Assembly: GCA_020723405.1 (NCBI GenBank)
Contig: DYIY01000001.1
Span: 186,001-250,000 of the forward strand
Reading direction: 5' to 3'
DNA from: Thiobacillus denitrificans
GTDB taxonomy: Bacteria; Pseudomonadota; Gammaproteobacteria; Burkholderiales; Thiobacillaceae
DNA length: 64,000 bases
The notes under the pieces: generated by a model
Seen by the model: the letters and a program-made list of their open reading frames with translations, nothing else
Database searches by the model: none
Told to the model about the DNA's origin: nothing
Shown here: one piece after another, positions 24,071-29,928 of the stretch
How positions within the stretch are numbered: position 1 is the stretch's first letter
Layout of the letters: each line of letters begins with the position of its first letter
Made by a program: the position numbers and the translations under genes

Positions 24071-27000
24071 TCAACGGTCCCTGGCCGCCGCTCCCTTGGC
24101 CACCCCCAGTTCCAAGCGGGCCGGCACTTCCCGGCCATCGCCGTCAAAGGCGGCCACGTCCCCTGGAGACAGGCGTTCCGCCGGAGCCCCTGCCGCCGCC
24201 AGGCCGGCCAGCACCGCCTGGGTCCGTTGCCGGGCCAGGTCGGCCAACTGGGCGTCGGTCACGGTTTCCTTGTCCAGCAGGCGCTGGTAGAGCAGGCCAT
24301 GGATATCCGTCCCCTTGAGCAGGCCCAGATCCTCCGCGCTCAAGGGCGTCTCGGATTTGAACAGGCTCTTCAGCCGGGACACCATCCTGCCCGCCGCGCC
24401 TTCCTGCTTCTTGTCCGGGTTGGCCTGGCGCCACTTGCCTTGCAGGCCGGCCCACTCGGTTTCGCCGAAGCGGCTCGCGTAGAGGGCCTCCAGGGCCCCC
24501 TGGACCTTGGGGTTGCCGGTGGAGAGGGGTCCCGGGTCTTCGCCGGGGGCCAGCTTCACGCCCATCTTCTCGGCCACGGCCCGGCGCAGTTGCATCTCCT
24601 TCATCACCGGCCGGTCGATGTCCGCCGACCAGGCGCCCTGGACGGTGAGGGCCAGACCCGGACGCTTGTTGAGGATCTGGGCGATCTGCTTGAACTTCTC
24701 CTTTTCCGGTGGCGTCAGGTCCGCCTCGCCGGCCTCGAAGGCGATCTTCTCCAGCTTCTCCCCGCCCCCGCCGAACAGGGCCCCCAGGGCCCGGAAGGGG
24801 GCGGTGACGATCTTGGTGAGGATGTTGCCGATGGCCTTCCAGATGATCTGCCCGTAGCTGAACTGGGGGTCGTCCAGGCTGCCCGACACGGGCAGGCCCA
24901 GGTCGATGCGCCCGTCGCTGTCCTGGAGGATGGCGATGGCCAGGTCCAGGGGCAGGTCCTTGGCCCCGGGGCTTTGCACCCGTTCCCCCAGGGTCAGCTT
25001 GTCCATGATGATCTGGTTCTCGCCCAGCAACTGGCGGTCCTTGATCTTGTACTCCAGGTCCAGGGACAGCTTGCCGGAATCGATCTTGCGCCCGGCGAAG
25101 GTGGCCGTGTAGGGGGTGAGGTTCTTCATCTCCACGTTGCGGAACACGGTCTTGATGTCCATGAAGCCGGTGGGATTGAACAGGTCGATCTGGCCCGCCG
25201 CCCGGGCCAGGCCGTAATCGTCCACCCGGCCGTCCAGTTCCAGTTCGGCGGCGCTGCCCGGCTGGCTGGAGATGCCGTTGAAGGCCCCCTTGAAGTCGTG
25301 GATGCGGGTGCCGAAGGGCAGGGCCAGGGAATGGTCGGCGAAGTCCAGTTCCCCGTGTTCGACGCGGATGCGCTCGATGCCCAGACGGAAGGCCCCCTCC
25401 CCGCTCGCCTTGGGCGCAGGGTCGGGGGGGAGGGCGGCCGGCGGCGGTGTTGACGGCTGCCCCCCTTCTCCTTCCCCGGCGGGCGGGGACGAAGCCTTGA
25501 GGATCTTCTTCAGGTTCACCGTCTTGTCCTGGTAGATCACCAGCTTGGCGCCCAGGCTGTCCAGCTTCAGCTCGTCGATGTCCAGGGCCCGGGGGCTGGC
25601 GGTGACGCTGTCGCTGGCGAGCTTCTTCCAGGCCAGGAAGCGGGCGCCCCCCTCGCTTTCGTTGAGCAGCAGGTCCGCCACCTGGAAGCCGCCCTGGAAG
25701 CTGGCGTCACCTGCGTACTTCAGCCGCCCCTGGAGGGAGGCCCGGCCGGAGGCCAGGGTCAGGTTGGCGGCCTGGGCCAGCCAGGGCTGGACCGGGGCCA
25801 GGGCCAGGTCGGCAAGGCGCAGGCGCAGGTCGGCGGAAGGCTTGCCGGGCACCACCCGGCCGTCGGCCTGGAAGCTGCCGCCCTCCTTCACCTGGAAGGC
25901 CAGTTTCACCGGCAGGGGCTTCAGCAGATCGTCGGAGAGGCCCGTGGCGCTGGCTTCCAGACGCTCCAGGGTGAGCCCGCCGGCGGGTTGCACCGTCTCG
26001 TCCCTGGCCGCCAACTGGAAGCCGGACAGGCCCACCTGGTCCACCTGCCAATGCCAGGGCTCGCCGGCTGCGACCGGCGCCGACTTGGCCGTGACGTCCT
26101 TGGCCGGCGCCGGCTTGCCCGGGGCCGGCTGGAAGGCCTCGGCCAGGGGCAGGCGGCCCCGCCCGTCGCGCAGGGCCAGGAGCTTGCCGTTGGCCAGGCT
26201 CACCTGGCCGATGCGGGCCTGGCGGGCCGCCAGGTCCAGGCTGCCGTCCTGCACGCTGATGCCGCCCAGGACGAACAGGGGTTCCTGGCGGGCGCCAGAC
26301 AGCAAACGGATGCCCGACAGGTCCACCGCCAGGCCGTCCACCCGGACCTGGGTGCCGGCCCCGGCCTCGGCCCGGGCGGCGAAGCCCACCTGGACGTTGC
26401 CCACCTCCGCCGTCAGGGGCGCGGCGAAGCCGGCATCGCTGACCCGGACGTTCAGGCCGTTCAGGGCGAAGCGCTTGAGGTTGATCTTCCAGTTCCCCCC
26501 GCCGCCTCCGGGGGCGGGGGAAGCCGCCGCAGACGGCACTGGCGCGGCCGGCTCGCCTTCACCCGCCGCCGGCAACCAATCCAGCACGTCCAGCCGGCCC
26601 GCCTTGTCCCGGTTGAGTTGCAGCCGCCCGCCGGACAGGGCGATCTCGCCGATGTCCAGTTGCCGGGCCGCCAGATCGAAGCGCCCGCCGCTCAGGGCCA
26701 GCCGGTCCAGGGTCACGGCCGGTTCCGCCGCCCCCCGGCCCTGCAGGGCCAGGCCCTCCAGGCCCAGGCTCAGCTTGTCCAGCACCAGGTCCAGCTTCCT
26801 GGCGGCATAGCCCACCCGGTAGTTGAGGCCCAGGCTGGCCGTGCCGGCCGGGGGCGCCAGGTTCAGCCGGTTCTCCAGATAGGGCCAGAGCTTGGCCAGG
26901 CTCACCCCGTCCACGGCCAGTTCGCCGCTGGCCGCCACGGGTTCCAGGCCCACGTCGCCCTTCCAGCGGATGCGCGCCCCCAACTGGGTGGTCGCCGCCA

Positions 27001-27589
27001 GGGCATAGGCCCCCTTGTCGTCCGGCAGGGTGGACAGGTCGGTGAGGGTCAGGTCCAGGGGATTGAAGGCGGTCTCGAAGCCCACCTTGCGGTCGGCCAG
27101 GGCCACCCGGCCCTTCTCCAGGACGATGCTGCGGATCAGCAGGCGGGGCAGGGGCTGGTCCGGCTCGTCCTCCTCGCTCTTGAAGGCTTCCAGGAGGGCG
27201 GACCAGTTGAGGCTGCCGTCGGCGCGCAGTTCCACCCGGGCGTCGGGGGCCGTGAGGCGGATGGCGTCGAAACTGTAGGCCCAGCGGAACAGGCTGGCGG
27301 CATCGAAGTCCACGAACAGGCTGTCGAAGGCCAGCAGGGGCTTGCCATCGGGCTCCGCCAGCTTGAGGCCCTGCACCGTCACCGCCAGGGCCAGGGGGTC
27401 GAATCGGGCGGCGCCGATCTCCAGCCGATGCTGGCTCTTGTCGGCCAGGAAGCGGGGCCCGGCCCATTTCACCAGGGGCTCGAAGGCGAACCAGGCGAAC
27501 AGGAAATAGACGACCACGACCCCCAGGGCGATGCGCACCGGGGTCTTCACCAGCAGGGTGGCCAATAGGCTACGCAGTCGGGCAAGCAT
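24071..27589 (-). CDS. Giant AsmA-like DUF748 envelope protein
   Basis: An 1172-residue protein with one N-terminal membrane helix (ALGVVVVYFLFAWFAF), then LVKWAGPRFLADKSQHRLEIG, the typical DUF748 start. The remainder is a long beta-rich body with repeated LAVDGLS/LALSGGRFDLAARQL-like strands, broken by Pro/Ala/Gly-rich linkers near residues 345-365 and 695-720. AsmA-family proteins are thought to form bridges that carry phospholipids between inner and outer membranes; DUF748 members are less studied. Start at ATG 27589, with GAGGAG upstream. The 5' leader is formed by the palindromic repeat at 27606-27784, so transcription must cross or start within that element. Ends 113 bp before the GGDEF-EAL gene. 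Confidence 0.88.
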   Translation of the reverse strand: MLARLRSLLATLLVKTPVRIALGVVVVYFLFAWFAFEPLVKWAGPRFLADKSQHRLEIGAARFDPLALAVTVQGLKLAEPDGKPLLAFDSLFVDFDAASLFRWAYSFDAIRLTAPDARVELRADGSLNWSALLEAFKSEEDEPDQPLPRLLIRSIVLEKGRVALADRKVGFETAFNPLDLTLTDLSTLPDDKGAYALAATTQLGARIRWKGDVGLEPVAASGELAVDGVSLAKLWPYLENRLNLAPPAGTASLGLNYRVGYAARKLDLVLDKLSLGLEGLALQGRGAAEPAVTLDRLALSGGRFDLAARQLDIGEIALSGGRLQLNRDKAGRLDVLDWLPAAGEGEPAAPVPSAAASPAPGGGGGNWKINLKRFALNGLNVRVSDAGFAAPLTAEVGNVQVGFAARAEAGAGTQVRVDGLAVDLSGIRLLSGARQEPLFVLGGISVQDGSLDLAARQARIGQVSLANGKLLALRDGRGRLPLAEAFQPAPGKPAPAKDVTAKSAPVAAGEPWHWQVDQVGLSGFQLAARDETVQPAGGLTLERLEASATGLSDDLLKPLPVKLAFQVKEGGSFQADGRVVPGKPSADLRLRLADLALAPVQPWLAQAANLTLASGRASLQGRLKYAGDASFQGGFQVADLLLNESEGGARFLAWKKLASDSVTASPRALDIDELKLDSLGAKLVIYQDKTVNLKKILKASSPPAGEGEGGQPSTPPPAALPPDPAPKASGEGAFRLGIERIRVEHGELDFADHSLALPFGTRIHDFKGAFNGISSQPGSAAELELDGRVDDYGLARAAGQIDLFNPTGFMDIKTVFRNVEMKNLTPYTATFAGRKIDSGKLSLDLEYKIKDRQLLGENQIIMDKLTLGERVQSPGAKDLPLDLAIAILQDSDGRIDLGLPVSGSLDDPQFSYGQIIWKAIGNILTKIVTAPFRALGALFGGGGEKLEKIAFEAGEADLTPPEKEKFKQIAQILNKRPGLALTVQGAWSADIDRPVMKEMQLRRAVAEKMGVKLAPGEDPGPLSTGNPKVQGALEALYASRFGETEWAGLQGKWRQANPDKKQEGAAGRMVSRLKSLFKSETPLSAEDLGLLKGTDIHGLLYQRLLDKETVTDAQLADLARQRTQAVLAGLAAAGAPAERLSPGDVAAFDGDGREVPARLELGVAKGAAARDR

Positions 27590-27605
27590 GTTGTCTCCTC
27601 AATTC

Positions 27606-27784
27606 AACCCGGATTGTTCATTAGGCGGCGCTATCGCGCCTGCGTAAGCGGCTGGCGGTCGAATCGTGGACATTTCGGGCGTTTGCTCGTCGGCCATAGC
27701 CGGACTATGGCCTCCTCCCAACCACCCAAACTGCCTCACGCTTCACCTCGCCTTCCGCATACGCCCTAATAAACAATCCGGGTT
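27606..27784. repeat. MITE-like palindromic repeat with terminal inverted repeats
   Basis: A 179-bp non-coding element. Its left end (27606-27627) begins AACCCGGATTGTTCATTAGG and its right end (27762-27784), read on the other strand, begins AACCCGGATTGTTTATTAGG; there is one mismatch and one extra base over about 22 bp. Inside is a perfect hairpin, GGCCATAG (27692-27699), CCGGA loop, CTATGGCC (27705-27712). No transposase is present. It fills the gap between the end of the gate-domain gene (8 bp away) and the ribosome site of the DUF748 gene. This is the architecture of a miniature transposable element or a mobilised palindrome. Only one copy is in the window. Confidence 0.75.
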
Positions 27785-27791
27785 CAAGCGT

Positions 27792-29018
27792 TCAGCGGCC
27801 GAAGAACAGGTAGGCCGCCCCCACCGCCGCCGCGAAACCGCCCAGGTCGGCCACCAGGCCGCCGGCCAGGGCGTGGCGCACCCGCTGGATGCCCACCGCG
27901 CCGAAATACACGGCCAGCACGTAGAAGGTGGTCTCCGTGCTGCCCTGAACGATGCTGGCCAGGCGCCCGGCAAAGGAATCGGCGCCTTCCGCCTGCATGG
28001 TCTCGATCATCATGGCCCGGGCTCCGGAGCCGGACAAGGGCTTCATCAGCATGGTGGGCAGGGCATCGACCCAGGCCGTGTCGAAGCCCAGCCCGGCCAC
28101 CCCGGCCCGGACCGCCTCCACGAAGGCCGGCAGGGCGCCGCTGGCGCGCAGCATGGCGATGGCCACCAGCATGGCCACCAGGTAGGGGATCAGGGTGACC
28201 GCCGTCTGGAAGCCTTCCTTGGCACCTTCGATGAAGGCCTCGTAAGCATTCACCCCCTTGCGCAGCGCCCCTATGAGGAAGATCACCACCAGCCCCAGGA
28301 GCAGGAAATTGGACAGCACCGAGGACTGGGCGGTCATCTCGGCGGCGGGCAGGCTGGCGAAATACCAGGCCAGCCCCCCCACCACGGCGCTGATGCCCCC
28401 CAGCCAGGCCAGCACCACCCCGTCCACCTTCAGGCGCTGCACGGTGGCCACGAAGAGGAACCCGGCCAGGGTGGAACAGTAGGTGGCCATGAGGATGGGG
28501 ATGAAGACGTCGGTGGGATCCGCCGCCCCCAGTTGGGCCCGGTAGGTAAAGATGGTCACCGGCAGCAGGGTCACCGAGGAGGCGTTGAGCACCAGGAAGA
28601 GGATCTGGGCATCGCTGGCCGTGTCCTTGTCCGGGTTCAGTTCCTGGAGTTCGCGCATGGCCTTGAGGCCCATGGGGGTGGCGGCGTTGTCCAGGCCCAG
28701 CACGTTGGCCGCCATGTTCATGGTGATGGAGCCCAGGGCCGGATGGCCCGCCGGCACGGCGGGAAACAGCCGGGCGAAGAGGGGCCCCAGCCAGCGCCCC
28801 AGCAGGGCCAGGAAGCCGGCCTTCTCGCCGATCTTCATCACCCCAAGCCACAGGCACATGATGCCGGTCAGGCCCAGGGCCACTTCGAAGGCGGTCTTGG
28901 CGGACTCGAAGGCGGCCTTCATCACCGCCGCGAACACCCCGGCATCGCCCCCCAGGTACTGCAACACCGCAGCGCCGAAGGCCACCAGGAAGAAGCCCAC
29001 CCAGATGGCGTTCAGCAT
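27792..29018 (-). CDS. Nucleoside-recognition (Gate) domain membrane protein, SpmA-SpmB fusion type
   Basis: A 408-residue polytopic membrane protein with two gate-domain halves resembling spore maturation proteins SpmA and SpmB joined in one chain. Visible features are MLNAIWVGFFLVAFGAAVLQ at the start, TMNMAANVLGLDNAATPMGL (the conserved SpmA motif), TLLPVTIFTYRAQLGA, and in the second half TLIPYLVAMLVAIAMLRASG and GSTETTFYVLAVYFGAVGI. The substrate of such proteins is unknown; transport of a nucleoside-like or murein-related compound has been suggested. The ATG at 29018 avoids a long unlikely extension. It lies 13 bp after the CobD-like gene, so it is the last gene of a three-gene minus-strand operon. 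Confidence 0.85.
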   Translation of the reverse strand: MLNAIWVGFFLVAFGAAVLQYLGGDAGVFAAVMKAAFESAKTAFEVALGLTGIMCLWLGVMKIGEKAGFLALLGRWLGPLFARLFPAVPAGHPALGSITMNMAANVLGLDNAATPMGLKAMRELQELNPDKDTASDAQILFLVLNASSVTLLPVTIFTYRAQLGAADPTDVFIPILMATYCSTLAGFLFVATVQRLKVDGVVLAWLGGISAVVGGLAWYFASLPAAEMTAQSSVLSNFLLLGLVVIFLIGALRKGVNAYEAFIEGAKEGFQTAVTLIPYLVAMLVAIAMLRASGALPAFVEAVRAGVAGLGFDTAWVDALPTMLMKPLSGSGARAMMIETMQAEGADSFAGRLASIVQGSTETTFYVLAVYFGAVGIQRVRHALAGGLVADLGGFAAAVGAAYLFFGR

Positions 29019-29031
29019 GCCGGGCCTTGCG

Positions 29032-29928
29032 TCACAGGCTGCCCAGCCAGAGCAGCCCCAGCACCGCCACCCAGAGCAGGGCGGCCCGCCAGACCAGGGC
29101 CACCACCCCATCCAGGGCATCCAGGCCCGGGGCCTCGCCCAGGCCCAGATCGGGTCGGACCAGGGCGCCGGCACTCAGTTGCAAGTTGCCCCCCAGGCGC
29201 AGACCCAGGGCGCCGGCCCCGGCGGCCAGGAGCACGCCGTCGCTGGGGTCCCCCCACTCGGTGGTCTGGCCGCGCCAGCATTCCAGGGCGTCCTGGAAGT
29301 TGCCGGCAATGGCGAAGCTGAAGGCCATGGCCCGGGCCGGCAGCCAGTCCAGCCAGGCGGCCATGCGCCGGGCAAAGTCGCCGAAGGCCGATTCACCGTG
29401 CCAACTGTCCCGGGCCAGATGGGTGAGCACGTGCAACACCGCCCCGGCCGGGCCCAGGAGCAGAAACCAGAAGAGCACACCGAACAGCCGGGCCAGGGCC
29501 TGGCGGAAGGTCTCTTCCAAAGTCTGGCGCAACAGGGAGGATGCGTCGGCCCCCAGCAACAGGTTGGGACGCCACACCCCCAGCTTTTCCCGGGCCCGCT
29601 CCAGGTCATCCTGCTCCAGGGATCGGACCACCCCGGCGGCCAGATAGGAAGCTCCCTTGAAGCCCAGGCAGAAATACAGGGCCAATACGTCGAATGCCCA
29701 GCCCAGTGGAGCCCAGATGCCGGCCAGCAGGTGGCCCAGGCCGGCCACGATCAGGGCGGGCAGGAGGGCGCCCAGGGTCCAGGCCAGCAGGCCATGCTGT
29801 TCGCCCCCGGCATTCAGATTGTCCAGCAGCCAGGCCAGCCATTCCCGGGCGGTGCGGCGGGGCTGGCCGGGGCGCTCCGGCCGCCAGTGCTCAAGCACCA
29901 GGGCGGCGAGCACGGCGAACAGGGTCAC
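29032..29928 (-). CDS. CobD/CbiB-like membrane protein
   Basis: A 298-residue membrane protein of the CobD/CbiB superfamily, which includes adenosylcobinamide-phosphate synthase and the AmpE-like proteins. Segments seen are MTLFAVLAALVLEHWRP, FCLGFKGASYLAAGVVRSLEQDDLERAREKL and AMAFSFAIAGNFQDALECWRG. True CbiB enzymes lie in cobalamin operons, but none is here and the N-terminal motif is divergent, so an AmpE-like regulatory or envelope role is as likely. The ATG overlaps the stop of the GyrI-like gene by 4 bp (ATGA), suggesting translational coupling. Confidence 0.75.
   Translation of the reverse strand: MTLFAVLAALVLEHWRPERPGQPRRTAREWLAWLLDNLNAGGEQHGLLAWTLGALLPALIVAGLGHLLAGIWAPLGWAFDVLALYFCLGFKGASYLAAGVVRSLEQDDLERAREKLGVWRPNLLLGADASSLLRQTLEETFRQALARLFGVLFWFLLLGPAGAVLHVLTHLARDSWHGESAFGDFARRMAAWLDWLPARAMAFSFAIAGNFQDALECWRGQTTEWGDPSDGVLLAAGAGALGLRLGGNLQLSAGALVRPDLGLGEAPGLDALDGVVALVWRAALLWVAVLGLLWLGSL

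Follow-up and report, generated by a model that had tools for sequence, protein, structure and literature searches.

A 175-bp palindromic element between the Gate and DUF748 genes of Thiobacillus denitrificans: a probable MITE with a likely IS1380-type helper

A palindrome fills the gap between two genes in a 64,000-nucleotide stretch of Thiobacillus denitrificans DNA (assembly GCA_020723405.1, contig DYIY01000001.1, positions 186,001–250,000; hereafter the window, numbered from its first letter), raising the question of whether it is spacer, mobile DNA, or structured RNA, and what could have placed it there. A first-pass annotation had described a MITE-like element of 179 bp (27606–27784), with terminal repeats of about 22 bp and a central 8-bp hairpin, located in the 5' leader of an mRNA. 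The minus strand reads, in order, a CobD/CbiB-like gene (29032–29928), the Gate/nucleoside-recognition gene, the element, and the DUF748/AsmA-like gene. Since the two flanking genes are co-directional, the element is intercistronic and not part of a 5' leader. The features of the locus are listed below.

27608..27782, minus strand (the strand with the conserved hairpin, which is the direction of the neighbouring genes): MITE, 175 bp (sequence, inverted-repeat tool, target duplications, folds)
27608..27625, plus strand: terminal inverted repeat CCCGGATTGTTCATTAGG (sequence, inverted-repeat tool, end-pattern search)
27765..27782, minus strand: terminal inverted repeat CCCGGATTGTTTATTAGG, written as the reverse complement (sequence, inverted-repeat tool, end-pattern search)
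27603..27607, no strand: left 5-bp target duplication, TTCAA (sequence, end-pair flank test)
27783..27787, no strand: right 5-bp target duplication, TTCAA (sequence, end-pair flank test)
27692..27712, minus strand: apical hairpin with an 8-bp stem, GGCCATAG/CTATGGCC, at 27692–27699/27705–27712 (pairing kept through both-sides changes in relatives)
24071..27589, minus strand: downstream gene, DUF748 (AsmA-like), 1172 aa (PF05359, 922.8 bits; AsmA, 35.1 bits); 18 bases separate the element from its ATG start codon
27792..29174, minus strand: upstream gene, Gate/nucleoside-recognition protein (PF07670), open frame as listed with a provisional start; 9 bases separate its stop codon from the element

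The limits of the element, 27608–27782, were read directly from the window sequence. Its 18-bp terminal inverted repeats match at 17 of 18 positions, and an inverted-repeat tool returned arms of 23 nt with 91% complementarity (27603–27625 and 27765–27787). The five outermost bases of these arms read TTCAA on the same strand on both sides, indicating a target duplication that lies outside the inverted repeat. The element therefore measures 175 bp, the earlier length having taken in two duplication bases at each end; likewise, the inverted ends are real, but the repeat proper spans 18 bp instead of about 22. A 20-base end pattern allowing ≤3 mismatches occurred twice in the window, compared with 0.01 times in shuffled sequences, and the DNA fold of the plus strand gave z = −6.2. 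The tool-found arms, this chance test, and the fold z-scores together confirm a palindromic element with inverted ends, and the central 8-bp hairpin was located at the apex. Among the listed open frames of ≥80 aa, a single one enters the element (27666–29321, plus strand, GTG start, 551 aa); this frame continues antisense across the Gate gene and gives no reason to suppose a gene here. The element is thus small, carries no transposase gene, and has both terminal inverted repeats and a target-site duplication, as expected for a MITE.

The element is single-copy in its own genome (G000; 4.15 Mb, 42 contigs, 99.3% complete). Its best relatives are 88% (G034), 82% (G003, partial), and 71% (G027) identical, and inspection of the flanking translations by eye places related copies next to different genes in other genera. 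A whole-element search found something in 8 of 61 genomes, and of 300 genomes sampled from the order, 3 contained the exact 17-base end, the own genome being included in both counts. The degenerate end (≤1 mismatch) occurred 2–220 times per genome in 18 of 18 genomes picked for such DNA, which conveys no prevalence because the genomes were selected by their matches. These 18 were chosen for having a match, except G032, which was taken for an IS1380-like gene with a MITE seen beside it; G012 and G365 are evidently one and the same, and some entered the set by way of loci whose kinship is not stated. The reversed-pattern control gave 0 occurrences in these genomes, apart from 1–2 each in G031, G032, and G368. 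In the sister genus g6, each of five genomes (two being single-contig) held 1–2 ends, and G024 (genus g3) held 4. The expectation of multiple copies thus holds in relatives, while the own genome has one. The element family is hosted by environmental bacteria, mostly Betaproteobacteria going by their record titles. Further copies of the window's subfamily were noted at L233:1883–2055, L234:1882–2054, L229:1843–2016, L230:1835–2007, and L231:791–964, and at least four are present in the genome titled Thiomonas (G370). Three copies of the subfamily occur in the genome of Formivibrio citricus DSM 6150, a culturable carrier. An Rfam search with the element gave no match at E ≤ 1, and a distant blastn search of a plasmid collection gave none at E ≤ 1e-3. 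In viral contigs, the exact 17-base end was absent; the degenerate end occurred in 14 contigs, with one pair within 400 bp (L126, flanks agreeing at 2 of 5 bases).

Pairs of ends 40–400 bp apart were collected blind to their flanks, giving 45, of which the viral pair was dropped. The 5-base flanks of the remaining 44 were identical in 26 pairs, agreed at 4 of 5 bases in 14, and at 3 of 5 in 4. Shuffling the flanks between elements gave a mean of 3.4 identical pairs and a maximum of 9 in 2000 shuffles. All 26 perfect duplications had the form xTNAx, with T always at base 2 and A always at base 4, and base 3 was T in 8, G in 7, A in 6, and C in 5. The middle base varies and yet agrees on the same strand in 37 of the 44 pairs, which identifies the flanks as duplications and not as an extension of the inverted repeat.

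We also compared the same gap across the genus. Of its 23 genomes, 17, the own genome included, matched the start of the DUF748 protein, and in 13 of the 16 congeners among them a script placed the end of the Gate gene directly upstream. Paired ends were absent from the Gate-DUF748 gap in all 13. These gaps, 14–207 nt when measured to the first aligned codon, are short and not alignable base by base; single loose end matches (≤4 mismatches) occurred in two of them (L136 and L144), unpaired. The empty-site check thus came out positive in every congener with the gene pair. The first-pass annotation had held that a single copy, confined to this locus and conserved as ordinary spacer in all relatives, would speak against mobility; the copy is indeed single in this genome, but the spacer is not conserved. 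The MITE reading is accordingly backed by the 5-bp duplications, the absence from 13 of 13 congener gaps, and the relatives located next to different genes. Hairpin repeats of other kinds are visible by eye in this gap, upstream of DUF748, in L139 (G006) and L136 (G020); with such repeats in at least 2 of the 13 congeners, the gap may accept insertions repeatedly.

Searches with PF13701, combined with reading of the flanks, revealed IS1380-family elements of several kinds. A large branch generates 4-bp YTAR duplications (CTAG, TTAG, CTAA, TTAA). Another branch has ends of the type CCCAAATTTYCCATTAG or CCCAGATTTYCCATTAG and 5-bp duplications. In the single-contig genome G460, a 1529-bp IS of this branch has perfect duplications at all five of its near-identical copies (TTCAT, CTCAT, TTGAA, ATGAA, and TTCAA), and a 1493-bp IS has ATTAA. 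In the Aliarcobacter cibarius plasmid pACIB, one of seven places was read, and it also fits (ATAAA; ends CCCAAATTTTTCAATAG / CCCGGATTTTGCAATAG), its end pair being the third in the script's candidate list and picked for likeness. A second Aliarcobacter IS (L228) showed no clear ends, and neither L222 of G460 (matching ends, differing flanks TTCAA/ATGAA) nor L206 (one end) was counted as a duplication. Four transposases of the 5-bp branch scored 246.6–273.8 bits with the NCBIfam IS1380 model (cut-off 180) and formed one clade with 100/100 support, the nine 4-bp ones forming another, in a tree that excludes pACIB and carries a long-branch warning for L188 next to the 5-bp clade.

An end profile was built from 90 MITE ends (45 elements, namely the 44 pairs and L153). 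It scored 14.3–26.2 bits on nine ends of the 5-bp branch versus −14.2 to 19.6 bits on 18 ends of the 4-bp branch; these ranges overlap slightly, so the two sets are not fully separated. The motif CATTRG at bases 12–17 was present in 7 of 9 ends of the 5-bp branch, 0 of 18 of the 4-bp branch, and 72 of 90 MITE ends. The left end of the window element matched ends of the 5-bp branch mostly at 12–15 of 17 positions, and the right end at 11–14; as the left end also matched two ends of the 4-bp branch at 14 of 17, the assignment to the 5-bp branch depends chiefly on the length of the duplication and its target pattern. Length by itself would not be enough to define the branch, since two other IS1380 subgroups, L187:328–2005 (annotated IS1678) and L151:747–2417 (IS1247), have the duplications TTCTA and CTTAG, respectively, with other ends. 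ISPsp9 (IS1380 family) is listed with a 5-bp direct repeat and ISPa33 (IS1380) with a 4-bp one in Table 1 of PMC4133298; the former shares its duplication length with the element's branch, the comparison resting on length and not on end sequence.

The 5-bp branch resembles the element in its CCCARATTTYCCATTAG-type ends and xTNAx 5-bp duplications (PF13701, NF033539), and differs in being autonomous, about 1.5 kb long, and equipped with a transposase gene, the likeness being judged at the ends only. No helper was found in the same genome: the own assembly had no PF13701 match (E ≤ 1e-10) and no PF01609 match (E ≤ 1e-8). Among the 18 MITE-carrying genomes, PF13701 matched in four, none with these ends, and the PF01609 transposases at 23 places in 23 genomes included none with these ends and 5-bp duplications. 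A transposase with matching ends, which the first-pass annotation had suggested looking for, was therefore found in relatives within the IS1380 family and not in the own assembly. With a single copy here and neither Pfam match, the helper is inferred from relatives. An ISPosp7-like member of the 4-bp branch was rejected as a candidate, having similar ends but 4-bp duplications (CTAG, TTAG) versus 5 bp here. Judged from ends and duplications in the sequence, the likely helper is the IS1380 branch that shares both features with the element, apart from the 4-bp YTAR branch.

A GTAG-tagged hairpin is enclosed in 20 of 36 other elements with the same end type (L021, L022, L024, L029, L031, L038, L066, L071, L101, and others), compared with 0.18 expected from shuffled cores. 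This hairpin is the hallmark of RAYT-associated REPs, so such elements seem to combine parts of two transposition systems that have no apparent relation to each other. In L021:1503–1705, from a genome of the window's genus (G012), the first 36 bases are identical to the window element's end and are followed by a GTAG REP core. The window element itself shows no GTAG hairpin by eye, the scripted count having covered other subfamilies.

In the predicted RNA fold of the minus strand with flanks, the element forms one hairpin (−117.8 kcal/mol, z = −9.3, a value that 0 of 200 shuffles equalled). This hairpin does not include the Shine-Dalgarno region or the start codon of the DUF748 gene; some Shine-Dalgarno bases fall in a weak 4-pair stem of the minimum-energy fold and are unpaired in the centroid. 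No match to the sigma-70 promoter consensus was found in the element, and a terminator search gave one terminator-like match, located outside it. We assembled 15 copies of the window's subfamily. A 7-copy alignment (A1) omits L061 (shortened) and L153 (insertion), and a 13-copy alignment (A3), drawn from G000, G034, G027, G047, G371, G372, G367, and G370 (the last four groups carrying the record titles Formivibrio, Sideroxyarcus, Sulfurimicrobium, and Thiomonas), omits L018 (runs off its contig) and L153 (partial). Among the seven copies, 95.3% of the cells pair and 28 of 70 pairs show both-sides changes, and 0 of 500 shuffles reached any of the five measures. Sliding the partners by 1–3 columns reduced pairing to 36.6–43.0%, although the structure, being derived from the same sequences, is favoured over its slid versions. 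Across the 13 copies, 67 pairs are kept, 28 of them with both-sides changes.

The two strands are not equivalent. The better fold belongs to the same strand in each of the 15 copies, six of which were added after the strand was noticed; the first strand-fold set took in L061 and L153, and the full set comprised all 15. For pairs common to both strands' folds, the departures on this strand are of G-U type in 31 cells, spread over 24 columns, and of A-C type in 7 cells, spread over 6 columns, the copies sharing ancestry, so that neither the cells nor the strand preference are independent. Processes acting on double-stranded DNA, such as arm-to-arm conversion or cruciform formation, are symmetric and should not give a G-U excess, whereas a strand-biased mutation process could. 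As far as aligned sequences can tell, the asymmetry hints that a single-stranded form, possibly RNA, has been under selection. A strong difference between strands is also seen in some copies of other subfamilies. Relative to their neighbours, as called by a G+C3 gene-call heuristic, five copies are co-directional (one with one flank), three are opposite, and seven lie between divergent genes; a function within the transcript of the host gene is therefore not general. Among the 14 copies with both flanks seen, 7 have divergent neighbours and none has convergent ones.

Taking these data together, we consider it highly probable that the element is a non-autonomous MITE moved by an IS1380-type transposase into the Gate-DUF748 gap. 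The one rival of some weight, which we regard as possible but rather doubtful, is a mobile structured RNA, in which the one-strand hairpin is selected for an RNA function (protection or processing of transcripts, or a small-RNA role) and is carried about by its IS1380-type ends. The both-sides changes in both alignments, beyond all 500 shuffles, the uniform strand preference, and the 24 G-U columns against 6 A-C columns argue for it. These same signals are weakened by the shared ancestry of the copies, by a structure derived from these very sequences, and by strand-biased mutation as another source of G-U pairs; moreover, orientation is mixed, other subfamilies sometimes differ strongly between strands, and neither an Rfam match at E ≤ 1 nor a consensus promoter was found. 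On a similarly tentative footing stands the proposal that the window's subfamily is a horizontally spread structured ncRNA, with a 175-nt hairpin and a small side stem kept by paired changes across several genera, whatever the neighbouring gene.

The other explanations fare much worse. A Tn3-family miniature element (TIME), which would also duplicate five AT-rich bases, is very improbable: Tn3 ends begin GGGG, and the element's ends resemble those of IS1380-family ISs with intact transposases. TIMEs are reported with 5- to 6-bp duplications in PMC4133298, but they have 38-bp ends there, in contrast to the 18-bp inverted repeat here. We give even less credit to the idea that a RAYT tyrosine transposase mobilised a repeat of REP/BIME type, although the GTAG-tagged hairpin in 20 of 36 elements with the same ends points that way. 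The window element lacks such a hairpin by eye, its family's 5-bp duplications are strong, and RAYT-type movement is not known to leave target duplications. That the palindrome is an ordinary conserved intergenic spacer or an operon-specific attenuator agrees with the single copy in the own genome; it is refuted by the gaps without the element (0 of 13 congeners with paired ends) and by the related copies that adjoin other genes, leaving it with virtually no probability.

Under the preferred reading of an IS1380-mobilised MITE, a 5-bp-branch transposase would have acted in trans from an element now gone from, or unassembled in, this genome. Without the element and one TTCAA, the gap counts 22 bases; within it, the transposase would have cut TTCAA with a 5-base stagger and inserted the MITE there. 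The Gate and DUF748 genes are probably co-transcribed, in which case the mRNA would include the element, folded into a single long hairpin that separates the two cistrons. As in the Correia elements, this hairpin would then likely mark a point of processing or decay, for instance as a target of RNase III, and translational coupling of the two genes would likely be lost; termination and a new promoter are the less likely outcomes.

MITEs that derive from the ends of an IS are an established class. The Correia repeat enclosed elements (CREE/NEMIS) of Neisseria are MITE-like, mostly 104–108 or 153–157 bp, and in mRNA their hairpin is bound, and can be cleaved, by RNase III, according to PMC2649163; they are similar to the window element in MITE form and RNA hairpin (only predicted here), and their ends differ. 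MITEPye1 of Paracoccus yeei, as described in PMC11578231, is intergenic, present in 1–3 copies, and predicted to form a long stem-loop in RNA. It shares with the window element the low copy number, the intergenic position, and a helper inferred from similar IS ends, but that helper belongs to the IS1182 and not the IS1380 family. A MITE is usually multi-copy within a genome, as seen here in relatives and not in G000 (one copy), and the 1–3 copies of MITEPye1 reported there indicate that this usage is not strict. Hairpins of the GTAG-tagged REPs described in PMC3733652 make up the core in many sister elements that share the window element's ends, and are absent from the window copy. An IS1380-linked MITE family was not met in literature searches, whose reach excluded most subscription papers and ISfinder, and the main text of a 2024 MITE review (PMC10969869) contains 'IS1380' zero times. 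The part that could go beyond the known kind is the one-strand compensated hairpin.

For the family, the analysis provides a concrete, testable helper, namely the IS1380 branch recognisable by its xTNAx duplications. Should the one-strand hairpin prove to be under selection, the long-standing question of whether MITEs are simply carried along or serve as functional parts of RNA would become testable, since divergent natural copies with compensated stems are available.
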